Assembly (NCBI GenBank): GCA_021847575.1 | Contig: JAJZQO010000010.1 | Coordinates: forward strand, 1-57,075 | DNA: 57,075 bases | From: Bacillota bacterium | Lineage (GTDB): Bacteria; Bacillota; Sulfobacillia; JAJZYS01; JAJYTV01 | Reading direction: 5' to 3' | In this document: one piece after another, positions 44,899 to 50,916 of the stretch | Position numbering within the stretch: position 1 is the first letter of the stretch | Layout: every line of letters begins with the position of its first letter | Translations under genes and position numbers: made by a program | Notes under the pieces: generated by a model | Told to the model about the DNA's origin: nothing | The model's database searches: none | The model's input: only the letters and a program-made list of their open reading frames with translations

Positions 44899-45427
44899 GC
44901 GTCATGCCCCCCGGGGCCAGTTTTCCCCGAGTGGCAAATCGCCTCGCGTCAGCATTGGTATACATAAGTACTCAGCAGATGTGCACAACAGCTTCTGCTG
45001 CTTTATCAGAAGTTATGTAACCCTACAAGGAGTCGACTCCTTTTCGCTTTGCTCCGTTTCCCGGTTGTTTGTTCTGCCCCACCAAGGTGCCACGCCTTCG
45101 TGATGCCGATCATGATCGGCCCCGACCAAATGGGCGCTGCCGGCCATTTGGTGCTGGTCTGGAACTGCTTCTTGCCTACCTTGGCTTGCTGCCGGTCATA
45201 CGAACCAAGTCTTGCCCAGCAGCGTCTATCGAAGGTTAGCTTGGCTCCGCCACCGCAGTCTGGCGGCAAGATTGATGCCGGGCCCAGATACAACAATGGT
45301 GCATGGCACCCGTTTACTCCCACAACCTGTCTCTTGACTACACACTGCAGATCTTGATTCGTAGTCAACGCTACCGACTAGCAAGCGCCATCGGACACGC
45401 CAACGTTATCGCCGCCGCTCGACCGGA
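44899..45427. other. Non-coding stretch with strong palindromes at the edge of the accessory island
   Basis: No supported gene. It holds a perfect 16-base palindrome at 45105-45120 (GCCGATCATGATCGGC). Just after it is an inverted repeat CCAAATGG (45126-45133) / CCATTTGG (45144-45151). G+C drops here relative to the left. Confidence 0.5.
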
Positions 45428-45790
45428 TCAGAAGTTTCGGAGCTCGATCAGCAGTCGTTCCGCTTGCGTCACCCACCGTTCAGCGTTCATCCTGTCCATT
45501 CCGGTTCTGTCCGCTTTGTAGTCTGCACGTATCCGGGCCCAGTACACATCCTGAGCATCTGTTGCCCACACCCGTACCGCAGGGTCTGGCCTACCCTGGA
45601 GCCACAGCCACAGTTGATCGTGAGTGCTCCTTTCGACTCCAGGGTAGTGCTGGCCAACCGCATAGGCCATGCCAGCATGGTAAAGCGCATAGTAGGCGCG
45701 ACTCACCGCGGAGCGCCTCTCTGCCTCCGTGGTTCCGGGGACCCATTGTTTTGCCACGGTGAGAAAGTTGCTCCAGTCAAACGTCCTCAA
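45428..45790 (-). CDS. HEPN-domain-like protein
   Basis: A 120-residue helical protein. RRSAVSRAYYALYHAGMAYA (about 27-46) is the core of HEPN-like domains, and WARIRADYKADRTGMDRMNAERWVTQAERLLIEL is the C-terminal helix pair with the R-x-x-A-D-Y signature. The R-x4-6-H RNase motif is not obvious, so it may be a non-catalytic or divergent HEPN. TTG start inside the preceding gene (14-base overlap). Third gene of an overlapping trio. Confidence 0.65.
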   Translation of the reverse strand: MRTFDWSNFLTVAKQWVPGTTEAERRSAVSRAYYALYHAGMAYAVGQHYPGVERSTHDQLWLWLQGRPDPAVRVWATDAQDVYWARIRADYKADRTGMDRMNAERWVTQAERLLIELRNF

Positions 45791-46346
45791 TCACCCTAAA
45801 ATCAAACGTAACATAGGGGTTAAGGTGCCGCCGTCGAAGCTCGCTCAGCACCTCTAGGTTCTTCTCCAGGGAATCGGCAGCCTTAAACTCGATGAGCAGG
45901 CAGGACGCTCCACTCTCTGGATCCGTCAGGGCATCAAGCCAAACCGGCTGAGGCTGAGGAAGGTCATGCCTAACAGCCAAGTCGCGTAGGTCATCCGGAA
46001 TCGCCCGGATGATGTCGAGCACCTCTGGGTGCTTGGAAGCATAACGCTCCAGAGCCTCCTCGTTCTCGACCCAGAAGGCGCCAGAGCGCAGCGTCTTGGC
46101 CAGTTCCGTTTCGTCCCACATACGGGCAAGGATATGCACAATTGCCCAGTTGGTAGACCCCACGCCCGAGGAGGACGAAGGCAGGTCGAGCCAAACCCGC
46201 ATGGCGCGTACGTCCTGCTTTGTCGCCGGTGACGAGAGTGCCACTTTCCCCGGGGAGACGGTCTCGGCTGGCACGACACCGAAAACCGCAGACCCGGCGG
46301 CCCGTTCCGACTGAGGCCACAGACCTCTCACGGCAACCTGTGTCAT
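45777..46346 (-). CDS. Unknown protein, middle gene of the HEPN trio
   Basis: A 189-residue protein without a recognised domain. The first half is Ser/Ala-rich (VRAMRVWLDLPSSSSGVGSTNWAIVHILARMWDE). The second half has ALERYASKHPEVLDIIRAIPDDLRDLAV and ends with a strand-helix-strand unit (SCLLIEFKAADSLEKNLEVLSELRRRHLNPYVTFDFRVIEDV). No nucleotidyltransferase GS-x-D motif, so it is not the MNT partner usually paired with HEPN. ATG preceded by GGGGAG. It overlaps both neighbours (ATGA upstream, 14 bases downstream). Confidence 0.6.
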   Translation of the reverse strand: MTQVAVRGLWPQSERAAGSAVFGVVPAETVSPGKVALSSPATKQDVRAMRVWLDLPSSSSGVGSTNWAIVHILARMWDETELAKTLRSGAFWVENEEALERYASKHPEVLDIIRAIPDDLRDLAVRHDLPQPQPVWLDALTDPESGASCLLIEFKAADSLEKNLEVLSELRRRHLNPYVTFDFRVIEDV

Positions 46347-46753
46347 GCTTCTCCCCGCTCCTTAACGAGAATGTCCAAATGTCCAAGCTCACTATCGCCG
46401 ACACGCGCGGTAACAGTGTACCGTCCAGCACTAGCCATGTCGATATTAGTCGCTATGATACTGAAGACAAGTCCGATGCTCTTCTCACCAGATGGATCCT
46501 CTGGTGGAGGCATAGGTGGACCACTTGATATGACTGCGCCGTTAGGGTCGCTAATTGAGAGTGACACGCCCTCACTTATATCATTCACGTGGTCATACCT
46601 AACGCCACCGGTGATGGCAAACGAGAACTGTCCAGGTATATACTTGGGCTGGATCATCGTCAGGGGGTTGACGATCACAGGTTGTGCTTGTCCCCCAGAA
46701 CCCGTTCGTGATTCCACCGTCTCCGAGAGCACCAGGAACGCCAGTTCGACCAT
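46343..46753 (-). CDS. Small beta-rich protein (DUF6941-like), first gene of the HEPN trio
   Basis: A 136-residue protein, mainly beta strands. MVELAFLVLSE opens it, FSFAITGGVRYDHVNDISEGVSLSISDPNGAVI is the centre, and ASAGRYTVTARVGDSELGHLDILVKE the end. The order resembles DUF6941, a small beta-sandwich family, by eye only. ATG at 46753 has GGAAGG six bases upstream; the frame is open 30 codons further but with no ribosome site. The stop overlaps the next gene's start. Confidence 0.6.
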   Translation of the reverse strand: MVELAFLVLSETVESRTGSGGQAQPVIVNPLTMIQPKYIPGQFSFAITGGVRYDHVNDISEGVSLSISDPNGAVISSGPPMPPPEDPSGEKSIGLVFSIIATNIDMASAGRYTVTARVGDSELGHLDILVKERGEA

Positions 46754-47403
46754 CCCGTCGTCCCTTCCGGCGCCGCACCGTCTCATGTAAGCGGGCTCGC
46801 CGCACATTGTGGCGATCACCATTGAACCCTTCGCAGTACCCATCCTAGAATAGTTGTCTGCTCATGGGAAGGGCATTCCCCCGCTCGTCACCCGAGCTTG
46901 GGTGCAACGGATCCATGTTCTGCTCAATCCAAACCCTGGCGAGCTCGAGAAACTTCTCTCGCGAGGCTACTTCTCAGTGCTGGCAGCGACCCGGGAAAAC
47001 GCCCCAAAGCCATGGCCCTCAAGGACTCGATGCAGTTGCCAAAGCCTGATGCTTCGCGGCCCAGTCACAGCGACCTCATGAGGGAAGAACGTCCATGGGC
47101 CCACTTTGGATTTGGTGGTCATCGGCTGGTACCGCGCGCATGCTCGCGTCTTCCTCCTGGGTACAACACTTTCTTCCTGCGACACCCGACTCCTCCTGGG
47201 CAGACGGAACGTGCCTTCGCCCTCCGTTGTAGGTGGACGGGGCGGTGTGTCTGACCGCGTCGGCACTGTTCCGCACGCTCCGCTGCGTATTGTGACGAAG
47301 TCGAACGCTGAGCGAGTATTGTCAGAATGCGATGAACCCGGGCCAGGGGCGGGTTTGATGGCTGGTAGGTAGAGGCAACACCAAGGGAATTGGTACAGCT
47401 TCG
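46754..47403. other. Gene-poor stretch in the accessory island
   Basis: I see no coding region with a family match or ribosome site. The promoter of the HEPN trio should lie near 46780-46900 on the minus strand; no box pair stands out. Confidence 0.4.
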
Positions 47404-47718
47404 GTGAACCCCGTTCAGCTTTGGTGCTGGACTCTCGACTGGGTCCCAGTTCGGGATGAGACGATCGCCGACGTCATCGCGAGATTCGGGGCAACGAAAA
47501 CCGACCAAATTGCGAGGGCCTTCTTCCAAGGGCCAAGCGCGAAGCGGGCGGCTCAGGCCCGGTTGCATGCGTTGGAGATCCACGGCTGGCTGAATCGGCA
47601 ATATCAAGTTCGCGGCGGTACTATCTGGATGGCTCCTGGGCTTCGCGGAGCCGACCTTGAACGCAAGGTAGCGGTATCCGAAGTGTGGGTTGCGCCCAGA
47701 GTACTTTTAAACGACTGA
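47404..47718 (+). CDS. Truncated winged-helix protein (replication-relaxation-like N-domain)
   Basis: A 104-residue protein: DETIADVIARFGATKTDQIARAFFQGPSAKRAAQARLHALEIHGWLNRQ followed by a wing (GGTIWMAPG). This matches the N-terminal winged helix of plasmid/ICE replication-relaxation proteins, whose larger C-terminal domain is missing here. The GTG start has no clear ribosome site. Suggests remains of an integrated plasmid or conjugative element. Confidence 0.45.
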   Translation: MNPVQLWCWTLDWVPVRDETIADVIARFGATKTDQIARAFFQGPSAKRAAQARLHALEIHGWLNRQYQVRGGTIWMAPGLRGADLERKVAVSEVWVAPRVLLND

Positions 47719-47723
47719 ATGCA

Positions 47724-48644
47724 CTATTTGATCAGAGGGAAGTAGACTGTGCCACCCGGGTCCCAGAACTGAAGCATCAACCGTCCATCCAGTTCACTGG
47801 CCGGTCCGGTGAAGCAGAGACCGAGCGGACCGGACTTGGCTCCCTTCGGAACAGGAGATGCCGGGACCACTGCGGGCCACAAGCCACAGTTGACCTGCAC
47901 GCCGCTAGAGAGCTTCACCGGGCTGTCGCCTGTAGGCCAGCCGCTCAGCTTGCCGTCGGCGAACTTGAGGGCGAAGTCGAGGGAGTTCGGCTGGAACGAA
48001 AACGAGGCGCTCTTGTTGTTGAACTTGAGGCGAAGGTAGACTTCCTGCTGGCCTTTGGGGCCGACCGCATGCGGGTCCACAGCGGTAACGTAGGCGACCA
48101 CCCCTGCGTTGTTGCTGCACGGCCCTGGCGAGCACTTGCCGCCTGCTGAAGTGACCTGAGCCCCACTTGCCGGGTTGACACCCGTTGGGGCCTTACCGCC
48201 GGCTTTGGCGGTCCAGGCAACGACGCCGGTGTAGCACGGCCCAGTTTCTTCCCAAGTCCCGTGGGCAGTCGCGGAGCTTGTGAACGTGCCCTTGAAGCGG
48301 ACCTCGCCGCCGTCGAGCTCAAGTTTGCCAGAGAAGGAGTCACCGTGCAGTCTGACACTTGGGTACATGAACAGTGCTGAGCACGAGGAGTCACCGGCGA
48401 CACTTGCAAACACGCCGCCAGCCAGAGGAGCATTAGCGCCGCCGAAGTGCTGGATCTTGCCGTTTGCCACCCAGAAGTTGACGACCGTGTGGACCTTGGC
48501 GTTGGGACCGTCAATAGCGGGCGCTGTGGCCGACCAGATGCCTGACTTCGGCAGGACACCAGCTGCGACGGACGGTGCCGCCATGATTCCTGCACTGATT
48601 ATGCCGGTCAACGCAACAAGAAACGAAAGAGTGCGGCGCGTCAT
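47724..48644 (-). CDS. Secreted two-domain protein of unknown function
   Basis: A 306-residue protein with a signal peptide (MTRRTLSFLVALTGIISAGIMAAPSVAAG). The first beta domain (about 35-150) has the layout G-x-W, VNFWVANGKIQHF, FSGKLELDGGEVRFKGTFTSSATAHGTW and a final C-x-x-x-x-x-WTAKA. A Cys-containing linker and a second Ig-like beta domain (about 180-306) follow. Six or more cysteines suggest disulfides. Such pairs occur in exported proteins of Gram-positives and Chloroflexi; the role is unknown. It stands alone in the island, convergent with the winged-helix gene. Confidence 0.65.
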   Translation of the reverse strand: MTRRTLSFLVALTGIISAGIMAAPSVAAGVLPKSGIWSATAPAIDGPNAKVHTVVNFWVANGKIQHFGGANAPLAGGVFASVAGDSSCSALFMYPSVRLHGDSFSGKLELDGGEVRFKGTFTSSATAHGTWEETGPCYTGVVAWTAKAGGKAPTGVNPASGAQVTSAGGKCSPGPCSNNAGVVAYVTAVDPHAVGPKGQQEVYLRLKFNNKSASFSFQPNSLDFALKFADGKLSGWPTGDSPVKLSSGVQVNCGLWPAVVPASPVPKGAKSGPLGLCFTGPASELDGRLMLQFWDPGGTVYFPLIK

Positions 48645-48740
48645 CGGACTGTCCTCCTAATCGACTCAGGCAAGAAACCCGGGCCTTCCAGCAGCGCATT
48701 CGCCCAGTTGCCGTAGCGGAGCCGGTCGCTGTTTGTGGTG

Positions 48741-48960
48741 TCAGCCCTTGACGTGCAGACACCTGGGGCTCGGGACCGGGGCTGACCAGCTGGCAGGCGG
48801 TAGCGCAACGGCGACCGTCCGCTGGCCCTGCTTGGGAAAGCCGGCCTCTTCGAAGATCAGGTGGCGATCCTGCGCAAACACCGCCAGAGCCTGTTCGACC
48901 GGCCGTCTGCGCACGTCCAGGCCATGCAACGGGCTGTCGCTGACAAGCTACTGCAACGCC
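48741..48960 (-). pseudogene. IS701-type transposase fragment
   Basis: The reading DRHLIFEEAGFPKQGQRTVAVA resembles the 'DETGFPKQGxxSVGVA' core of IS701 transposases. The flanks fall into other frames and a stop soon follows. Only the core is left. Confidence 0.55.
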
Positions 48961-49204
48961 CTGCTCATCGCACTCTGGGACATACAGGGCCATCGCGCCT
49001 GCCAACTTCCGTGCCCCGTCCATCATCTGGACGGGCACTTACCTGCTGTCCCACTGCCGGTTCTTCAGGTGTTGCTCCCGCCGAACGCCTCGACCAGATG
49101 AGACTCCATCTCCGCCCCGTACACATGCTCAGCACTTCGAATGCCGTGCCTTTCGCCAGCGACCCTCCATTACCTCTTAGTGGACTTTCGCACATTCGGA
49201 TGAC

Positions 49205-49557
49205 AGCGTGAAACGGCTAGGCTGCGGTGGCAAGGACCTCGAGCAGGACATCTTGGAGTTCCGGGGAGACAGGCGGCTGAGTTGACCCTGCGAAAATTCT
49301 CTGGCGCCGAGGCGTCTACTTCGTCCGGGCCCAGCATCTCCTGGAGGATCTGCGCGTGGCGCAGGCGGAGCTCGCCTCGACCGACGGATACGCATCCACC
49401 TCGCTCCCAAGGTGCCGATCGTCGACGCGTTCGGTGTCTGGCCCTATGACCGGATGGCGGCCACGGCTCTGTTCAGCCTGGTCTCTGCCCGCTGCGAGCG
49501 CGGCAGCATTGTCCTTAGCTTGAACAAGGACTTCGCCGAGTGGGGCGACGTCCTTGG
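49205..49557 (+). pseudogene. IS21-type IstB ATPase remnant
   Basis: Two frames hold pieces of IstB: YFVRAQHLLEDLRVAQAEL, then after a shift LDRRIRIHLAPKVPIVDAFG and VWPYDRMAATALFSLVSARCERGSIVLSLNKDFAEWGDVLG. The Walker A part is missing and the usual Walker B 'VDEFG' is VDAFG. Dead element. Confidence 0.7.
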
Positions 49558-49562
49558 CAAAA

Positions 49563-49597
49563 CGTGCCCCCCAGGGATCAACTCCCCGGGGGGCACG
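49563..49597 (-). terminator. Intrinsic terminator of the glutamate dehydrogenase gene
   Basis: Read leftward: arms at 49597-49588 and 49572-49563 (ten pairs, CGTGCCCCCC type), followed by a TTTT run, 18 bases after the stop. Confidence 0.75.
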
Positions 49598-49614
49598 GCG
49601 GCACTCGGCCCTGT

Positions 49615-50916
49615 TCAGTCGCCCGCGCCGCGCAGGATGGCCGGCGGCACCTGGTGCTGGAAATCCAGACTGAGCCAGCCGCGGGCGGTCGCCGCCTCGG
49701 CGACGCGGTGCACCGCGACGAGGTAGGCCGCTTCGCGCATCGTCACCTTGTGCTCGTTGCGCATCTTGTAGATCGTGTCGAAGGCGTCGTTCATCATGCG
49801 CAGCAGCTTGTCGTTGACCTCGTCCTCGGGCCAATAGTAGCCCATGGTGTTCTGCACCCACTCGAAGTAGGACACCGTCACGCCGCCCGCGTTGCAGAGG
49901 ATGTCCGGGATGACGAAGATGCCGCGCTCCGCCAGGAGCTCGTCGCCTTCCGGCGTCGTCGGGCCGTTCGCCGCCTCGGCCACGATGCGGGCCTTGACCA
50001 GTTCGGCACGCTTGCCGTCGATCTGGTTCTCGAGCGCGGCGGGGACGATGACGTCCACGTCCAGGGAGAACAGGTCGTCGTTCGAGATCTCGCGGCTGCC
50101 GGGGAAGCCCTTCGTCGTCCTGTGCTCCTGCGCGTAGCGCAGCAAGGCCGGGATGTCCAGGCCGTCAGGATTGTACGCGCTGCCGCGGACGTCCGAGACC
50201 GCCACGATCTTGACGCCCGCCTCGGCGAGCAGGCGCGCGCTGTGCGTGCCCACGTTGCCAAAGCCCTGGACAGCCGCTGTCGCCTTCTTCGGGTCGATGC
50301 CCAGCCTGTCCATGGCGCGCAGCACGACGAAGAGGACGCCGCGTCCCGTCGCCGCGTCGCGGCCGAGGGAGCCCCCCAGGACGAGCGGCTTGCCGGTGAT
50401 GAAACCCGGCGTGTGGTGGCCGCGCACCTTGTCGAACTCGTCGAGCATCCAGCCCATGATCTTCGGATTCGTGTTGACGTCCGGCGCGGGGATGTCGATC
50501 TCGGGTCCCATCACCGGCGCGAGCTGGCGGATGTAGCCGCGCGACAGCTCCTCGAGCTCGCGCTCCGTGAGCGTGCCCGGATCACAAATGACGCCGCCCT
50601 TGGCGCCACCATATGGCAGACCCATGACGGCTGTCTTGAACGTCATCCACATCGAGAGGCCCTTGACTTCGTCTTCGCTGACGTCCTGGTGGAAGCGGAT
50701 GCCGCCCTTGGTCGGGCCGGTGACGTCGGTGTGCTGCGCACGGAAGCCGATGAAGGTTTGGATCGAGCCGTTTTCCATGTGCACCGGCACAGCGACCCGC
50801 GTGATGCGGAACGGCTCCTTGAAGACCTCGTAGACATCCTCGGGGAACCCGAGATTCTCCACGGCGCGATGAAGCTGCCCTTGCACAATTAGGAAGGGGT
50901 TCGTCAAGTCCGACAA
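49615..50916 (-). CDS. Glutamate dehydrogenase (NAD(P)-dependent)
   Basis: A 433-residue Glu/Leu/Phe/Val dehydrogenase of the RocG/GudB type. Substrate site GPTKGGIRFH, MTFKTAVMGLPYGGAKGGV (catalytic Lys), PAPDVNTN, and Rossmann VQGFGNVGTHSARLLAEAGVKIVAVSD are present. It deaminates glutamate to 2-oxoglutarate or the reverse. TTG start with AGGAGGAG five bases upstream. Monocistronic with its own terminator. Confidence 0.93.
   Translation of the reverse strand: MSDLTNPFLIVQGQLHRAVENLGFPEDVYEVFKEPFRITRVAVPVHMENGSIQTFIGFRAQHTDVTGPTKGGIRFHQDVSEDEVKGLSMWMTFKTAVMGLPYGGAKGGVICDPGTLTERELEELSRGYIRQLAPVMGPEIDIPAPDVNTNPKIMGWMLDEFDKVRGHHTPGFITGKPLVLGGSLGRDAATGRGVLFVVLRAMDRLGIDPKKATAAVQGFGNVGTHSARLLAEAGVKIVAVSDVRGSAYNPDGLDIPALLRYAQEHRTTKGFPGSREISNDDLFSLDVDVIVPAALENQIDGKRAELVKARIVAEAANGPTTPEGDELLAERGIFVIPDILCNAGGVTVSYFEWVQNTMGYYWPEDEVNDKLLRMMNDAFDTIYKMRNEHKVTMREAAYLVAVHRVAEAATARGWLSLDFQHQVPPAILRGAGD

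Follow-up and report, generated by a model that had tools for sequence, protein, structure and literature searches.

A gene trio on an inserted island

The locus lies in the window, a 57,075-nucleotide stretch of a Bacillota genome, and holds three leftward genes, here called A, B and C, of which A and B overlap by 4 bases and B and C by 14. The features at the locus are the following.

46343..46753, minus strand: gene A, 136 aa, DUF6941-like; Ig-like beta-sandwich by prediction, proposed as a sensor or regulator
45777..46346, minus strand: gene B, 189 aa, without family match; proposed HEPN adaptor or inhibitor
45428..45790, minus strand: gene C, 120 aa, HEPN-T protein with a TTG start; proposed RNase effector
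44942..49601, no strand: inserted island of about 4.66 kb that carries the trio, between DUF421 (YetF-like) and glutamate-dehydrogenase-like genes
47404..47718, plus strand: truncated Replic_Relax-like fragment, island cargo
47724..48644, minus strand: island cargo, a protein of 306 aa that begins like a signal peptide and matches no family significantly

The three overlapping leftward genes described in an earlier note on this DNA are confirmed by their coordinates, and homologues in the same order in genomes G046 and G048 and in family f37 show that they are real genes. Between the G101 and G091 copies, dN/dS is 0.32 for A, 0.43 for B and 0.14 for C, values that show purifying selection and are lowest for the HEPN gene. 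The C gene of the window starts with TTG, while that of G046 starts with an ATG placed 11 bases inside B. A frameshift was considered as the reason why B is shorter than in G046 and was dropped, as no other frame matched (by eye only).

The lower-GC island of the earlier note is also real: its GC content is 57-60% against about 70% around it, and its borders could be drawn from sister genomes, eight of which lack it at the same site. Between the DUF421 and dehydrogenase genes lie 70-130 bp in G045, G046, G047, G050, G051 and G052 and 4.7 kb in the window, and alignments to six of the eight sister genomes stop at 44900-44941 and start again at 49602-49628. In G048 and G049 the spacing is about 850 bp and filled with other sequence; these different inserts at the same intergenic site (L138 and L137, respectively) suggest an insertion hot spot. 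The genes that flank the island are 80-89% identical to those of G048, which belongs to the same genus, whereas A and B of the trio are only about 41% and 32% identical between the two genomes. Moreover, the trios of G046 and G048 lie on other contigs than the flank-gene site. The combination of a diverged trio, conserved flanks and a different location in these two genomes points to a gain of the trio by transfer.

No Rfam family or tRNA gene was found at the island, nor convincing repeats at its borders. The truncated replication-type gene reported earlier corresponds to the Replic_Relax-like fragment, whose match covers 46 of 191 model positions (E=1.2e-4, 22.7 bits, curated cut-off 25.3) and gives this label weak support; the reported IS debris could not be confirmed, as ten further open reading frames of the island have no Pfam match. 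Mobile surroundings are found at other loci as well, since the trio of G105 lies on an element with a conjugative T4SS coupling protein and that of G091 adjoins a phage integrase.

Conservation and genomic company of the trio

A survey of 154 genomes of the class, in which A-subfamily loci were taken at E <= 4.1e-7, returned nine such loci in eight genomes. B lies directly downstream of A at all nine, and an intact C follows B at six of them; in G048 (where its start can be read) and G105:C77 the contig end truncates C, and in G100:C331 C is decayed. The order A-B-C, whether intact, cut by a contig end or decayed, recurs in eight other genomes of the class. Trio loci, with genes mostly overlapping or nearly so, are those of G000, G046, G048, G101, G091, G105, G116 and G100, and in G084 there are two additional copies, whose DUF6941 gene is closer to the canonical form and one of which has a shortened HEPN.

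This order is kept between proteins of low identity, mostly 20-53%; the window trio and that of G046 share 46% (A), 36% (B) and 53% (C). Computed over eight loci, the distance matrices of the three proteins are closely correlated (r 0.89-0.93, Mantel p <= 0.0003), a correlation to which shared host ancestry may contribute. Outside the class, where the sampling was thinner, the trio is also found, beside an integrase, in the Enterococcus faecium temperate phage 4995_1 (L104) and in four E. faecium phage-like plasmid records. There it consists of a DUF6941-like gene, a small B with a hydrophobic segment and a HEPN gene. Scans of viral contigs with the A and B profiles and plasmid searches with A and B of the window gave no matches, and at L093, L098 and L091 a HEPN gene and a B-type partner occur without A. 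The earlier note had proposed that the three genes form a single functional unit, and to look for their co-occurrence; given its outcome within the class and in the E. faecium phage, we consider it very probable that they do.

A search of gene neighbourhoods, likewise proposed there, placed the trio with mobile and defence DNA at several loci. In G046 it lies directly behind a cassette of DUF499, DUF3780, DUF1156-methylase and PLD-helicase genes, which score 1243, 243, 1420 and 1336 bits, respectively, with PADLOC models. This cassette is the Type-2 BR system of PMC12839542, and HEPN proteins are described there as auxiliary effectors of BREX/BR loci (PMC12839542). At G100:C213 a B C-terminus and a HEPN gene lie behind hsdM. 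In the window, no recognised defence gene was found beside the trio.

HEPN genes of the C type are also found with a TPR-like partner, as overlapping or adjacent pairs in prophage and phage tail regions. Four such pairs (L067:4229-5381, L077:4237-5372, L076:4054-5318 and L102:2198-3387), mostly with a 4- or 14-base overlap, belong to phrog_17809 and phrog_5176 and are flanked by structural genes in phages of enterobacteria and Pseudomonas; they look like moron-type defence pairs. On Thermus brockianus plasmid pTB1 (L100:3693-5387), TIGR04255, B-type and HEPN genes, the last one unannotated, follow one another at a distance of a few kb from cas6. The G086 equivalent of the TIGR04255 gene shows no more than a hint of this family (12.7 bits, cut-off 30).

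Sequence and predicted structure of the three proteins

The labels "DUF6941-like" and "HEPN-like" of the earlier note are both right, although each is reached more clearly through relatives than through the window proteins. A scores 17.4 bits against DUF6941 (PF22091), below the curated cut-off of 27, while two relatives that take the place of A in their operons reach 28.2 and 30.6 bits and A itself matches phrog_5881 (E=7e-11). Its structure model is all-beta with a mean pLDDT of 61.8, a low confidence for a model that rests on two sequences. The fold neighbours of this model are Ig-like and RhoGDI-like at E values of 0.0015 or worse, with none in the PDB at E <= 0.001, and a profile search against PDB sequences returned mostly Ig-type domains with weak E-values. 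A is probably an Ig-like beta-sandwich, and by analogy alone such a fold suggests recognition of a protein. A search of open-access full text found no literature on DUF6941 or TIGR04255.

Genes of the A type also occur without HEPN, which indicates that A does not serve this effector alone. In other Bacillota (L029:1378-3032, L031:1378-3080, L109:1438-2509), A-like DUF6941 genes without HEPN are followed by overlapping or close variable genes whose products resemble membrane or linker proteins. A third conserved protein ('W...P..QGDI...') is encoded downstream at two of these loci; this arrangement is possibly a sister module. In Lactococcus phage 38502 (L101:2471-3510) and Leuconostoc phage phiMH1 (L106:2995-3911), an A-like DUF6941 gene and a membrane/coiled-coil-like gene lie directly after the lysis genes, again without HEPN. 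One related A gene, a DUF6941-like gene in G469 (L112:350-2238), lies directly upstream of a gene for an AbiLi-like AAA ATPase.

B has no family match among Pfam, NCBIfam and PADLOC profiles; its sole NCBIfam match, ANT, is at chance level (E=0.043). The two-sequence model of B has a mean pLDDT of 61.5. Its first 79 residues are unreliable; helices follow, and then a beta-beta-alpha-beta unit at about residues 135-186 (pLDDT 71-90), and the model has no PDB match at E <= 0.001. The C-terminus carries the conserved pattern LxDPExG...VTFD. Profile comparison of this region links the window group by a chain to f37, G084/G086, Thermus/Gloeothece/G041 and G120, with single-link probabilities of 55% to 92% against 1% or less for reversed controls. 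As judged from these profiles, the C-terminal domain of B has relatives among other proteins encoded next to HEPN genes. The E. faecium B gave no profile link in this comparison. A resemblance of the B C-terminus to the TPR-type partners of HEPN in enterobacterial prophages, first seen by eye, found no support in the profiles (probabilities below 1%). A hidden MNT was rejected for B, which has no Pfam match and no conserved DxD after its GS, and the absence of an MNT motif from the trio, asserted in the earlier note, was borne out by the lack of MNT signatures.

For C, the window protein is sub-threshold against HEPN (PF05168; 15.5 bits), while its relative at L085 scores 30.0 bits (cut-off 22) and C matches phrog_5176 (E=1.8e-10). 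These profiles, together with the motifs below, place C in the HEPN family, the identity that the earlier note had proposed to check. With the components of PADLOC-DB 2.0, C gives only PDC-M22A (E=0.01 over 36 residues) and its relatives a weak HEPN_IX (E 7e-4 to 3e-3).

All 22 HEPN relatives compared, which have diverse partners, share E22, R26, Y33, Y34, H57, R86, D90 and Y91 without exception. The canonical Rx4-6H is absent from C, and all 22 have R86xxxD90Y91 in its place. The main elements are the following.

45725..45727, minus strand: E22 codon, first residue of the invariant E22xxxR26, the Ex3[KR] HEPN element
45620..45622, minus strand: H57 codon, for the alternative conserved histidine that precedes the third helix, invariant in 22/22
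45518..45535, minus strand: R86-x-x-A89-D90-Y91 motif, in which D takes the position of the canonical Rx4-6H histidine; R86, D90 and Y91 invariant

This pattern corresponds to what Anantharaman et al. 2013 (PMC3710099) describe, in their passages on HEPN domains and on the AF0298-like HEPN-T group (PF05168). HEPN domains carry an Ex3[KR] element, and in AF0298-like proteins the H of Rx4-6H is lost, with D there in several cases, and another conserved H, situated between helices 2 and 3, was proposed in 2013 to belong to an alternative active site. C shares with this group the retained R, the D for the catalytic H, the second H and Ex3[KR]; the position of H57 between helices 2 and 3 is placed by sequence alignment and not by structure. 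By its sequence C is therefore an AF0298-like HEPN-T protein. According to the same paper, HEPN proteins without Rx4-6H can be non-catalytic, so that catalysis by C is not assured, but the fit to the alternative-site description makes RNase activity plausible.

A candidate anti-invader operon and the alternatives

From the above we infer that the trio is a defence or toxin module. The reading that we favour, with moderate confidence, is that of a mobile operon of sensor, adaptor and HEPN RNase for abortive-infection-like defence against invaders. A would be the sensor, recognising a component made by the invader, most likely a protein. B would be translated just before C by translational coupling, bind C via its C-terminal domain and restrain it. 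On recognition of the invader, A would act through B to release C, a HEPN-T endoRNase, probably dimeric, with the alternative site E22xxxR26 / H57 / R86xxxD90, and the released C would cut RNA and arrest growth before the invader can spread. What we infer for this operon is thus its RNase activity, the A-B-C complex, the direction of inhibition, the trigger and the abortive outcome. The B/C overlap favours co-translation, so that the toxin would be made in the presence of an inhibitor; either B or A could be this inhibitor.

The three genes could also form a plain toxin-antitoxin module for addiction or stress, with B as antitoxin, C as toxin and A as a second regulatory or chaperone-like subunit, kept for the stabilisation of mobile DNA and not for sensing invaders. 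We regard this as rather unlikely, although the mobile context of the trio agrees with it, as do the HEPN and B-type pairs that lack A and the placement of the putative antitoxin gene upstream of and overlapping the toxin gene, as in the MNT-HEPN dyads described in passages of PMC3710099. Against it, A is retained and diverges together with B and C, the G046 copy lies behind a defence cassette, and HEPN genes with TPR-type partners occur as moron-like pairs in phage tail regions.

Two further explanations concern single members of the trio. It is improbable that C is a non-catalytic RNA-binding HEPN in an operon that regulates translation or a host pathway: the missing Rx4-6H would allow it, but E22, R26, H57, R86, D90 and Y91 do not vary among 22 divergent proteins, and the pattern that they form is the published alternative active site. 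We likewise give little credence to a module of B and C alone, with A an independent cargo gene that came to lie upstream by chance. A-type genes do have other downstream genes (L029, L031, L101, L106, L109), and B-C occurs with TIGR04255 (L100) or without A (L093, L098); however, B follows A directly at every A-subfamily locus of the class, the E. faecium phage retains all three genes, and the A-B and A-C distances correlate.

Under the sensor-adaptor-RNase reading, the trio can be compared with several described systems. As in HEPN-MNT (HepT-MntA, type VII), the small HEPN gene comes last, behind an overlapping partner gene. The trio differs in having three genes and not two, an alternative HEPN active site and no nucleotidyltransferase, as B lacks both a family match and a conserved GS...DxD. 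For the AF0298-like group, PMC3710099 describes MNT partners, and its passages on the group do not mention partners like B and a DUF6941-like protein. Tha-1/Tha-2 (PMC11087260) is a HEPN abortive defence carried by S. aureus prophages and triggered by tail proteins of the incoming phage; Tha is, however, one protein of 301 aa with a canonical RNSIMH and an ith inhibitor, whereas the trio has three proteins and no Rx4-6H. Finally, the Type-2 BR system (BREX-related, DUF499/DUF3780; PMC12839542) directly precedes the trio of G046, and HEPNs are described as auxiliary in such loci, but the trio is an operon of its own, and in the window, as in the other genomes examined, it occurs in the absence of the cassette. 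The component models of PADLOC-DB 2.0 matched no known anti-phage system to the trio. It is most likely a three-gene anti-invader system undescribed so far.

On a broader scale, we propose, tentatively and with more doubt than belief, that such operons form an undescribed class of modular three-component immune systems, with an exchangeable first protein, a shared adaptor domain and an AF0298-type HEPN RNase, and that DUF6941 is a general invader-sensing domain. If so, the first protein, either an Ig-like DUF6941 or TIGR04255 (as on Thermus plasmid pTB1), would sense invaders, a small shared adaptor domain of helices and beta-beta-alpha-beta would control the AF0298-type HEPN RNase, and DUF6941 would be coupled to different partners in phages of lactic acid bacteria and in other Bacillota. 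The trio as found already offers a testable role for the uncharacterised DUF6941 and shows AF0298-type HEPN proteins with organised partners besides MNT. The E. faecium phages carry a compact natural copy of the trio that can be tested in laboratory hosts.
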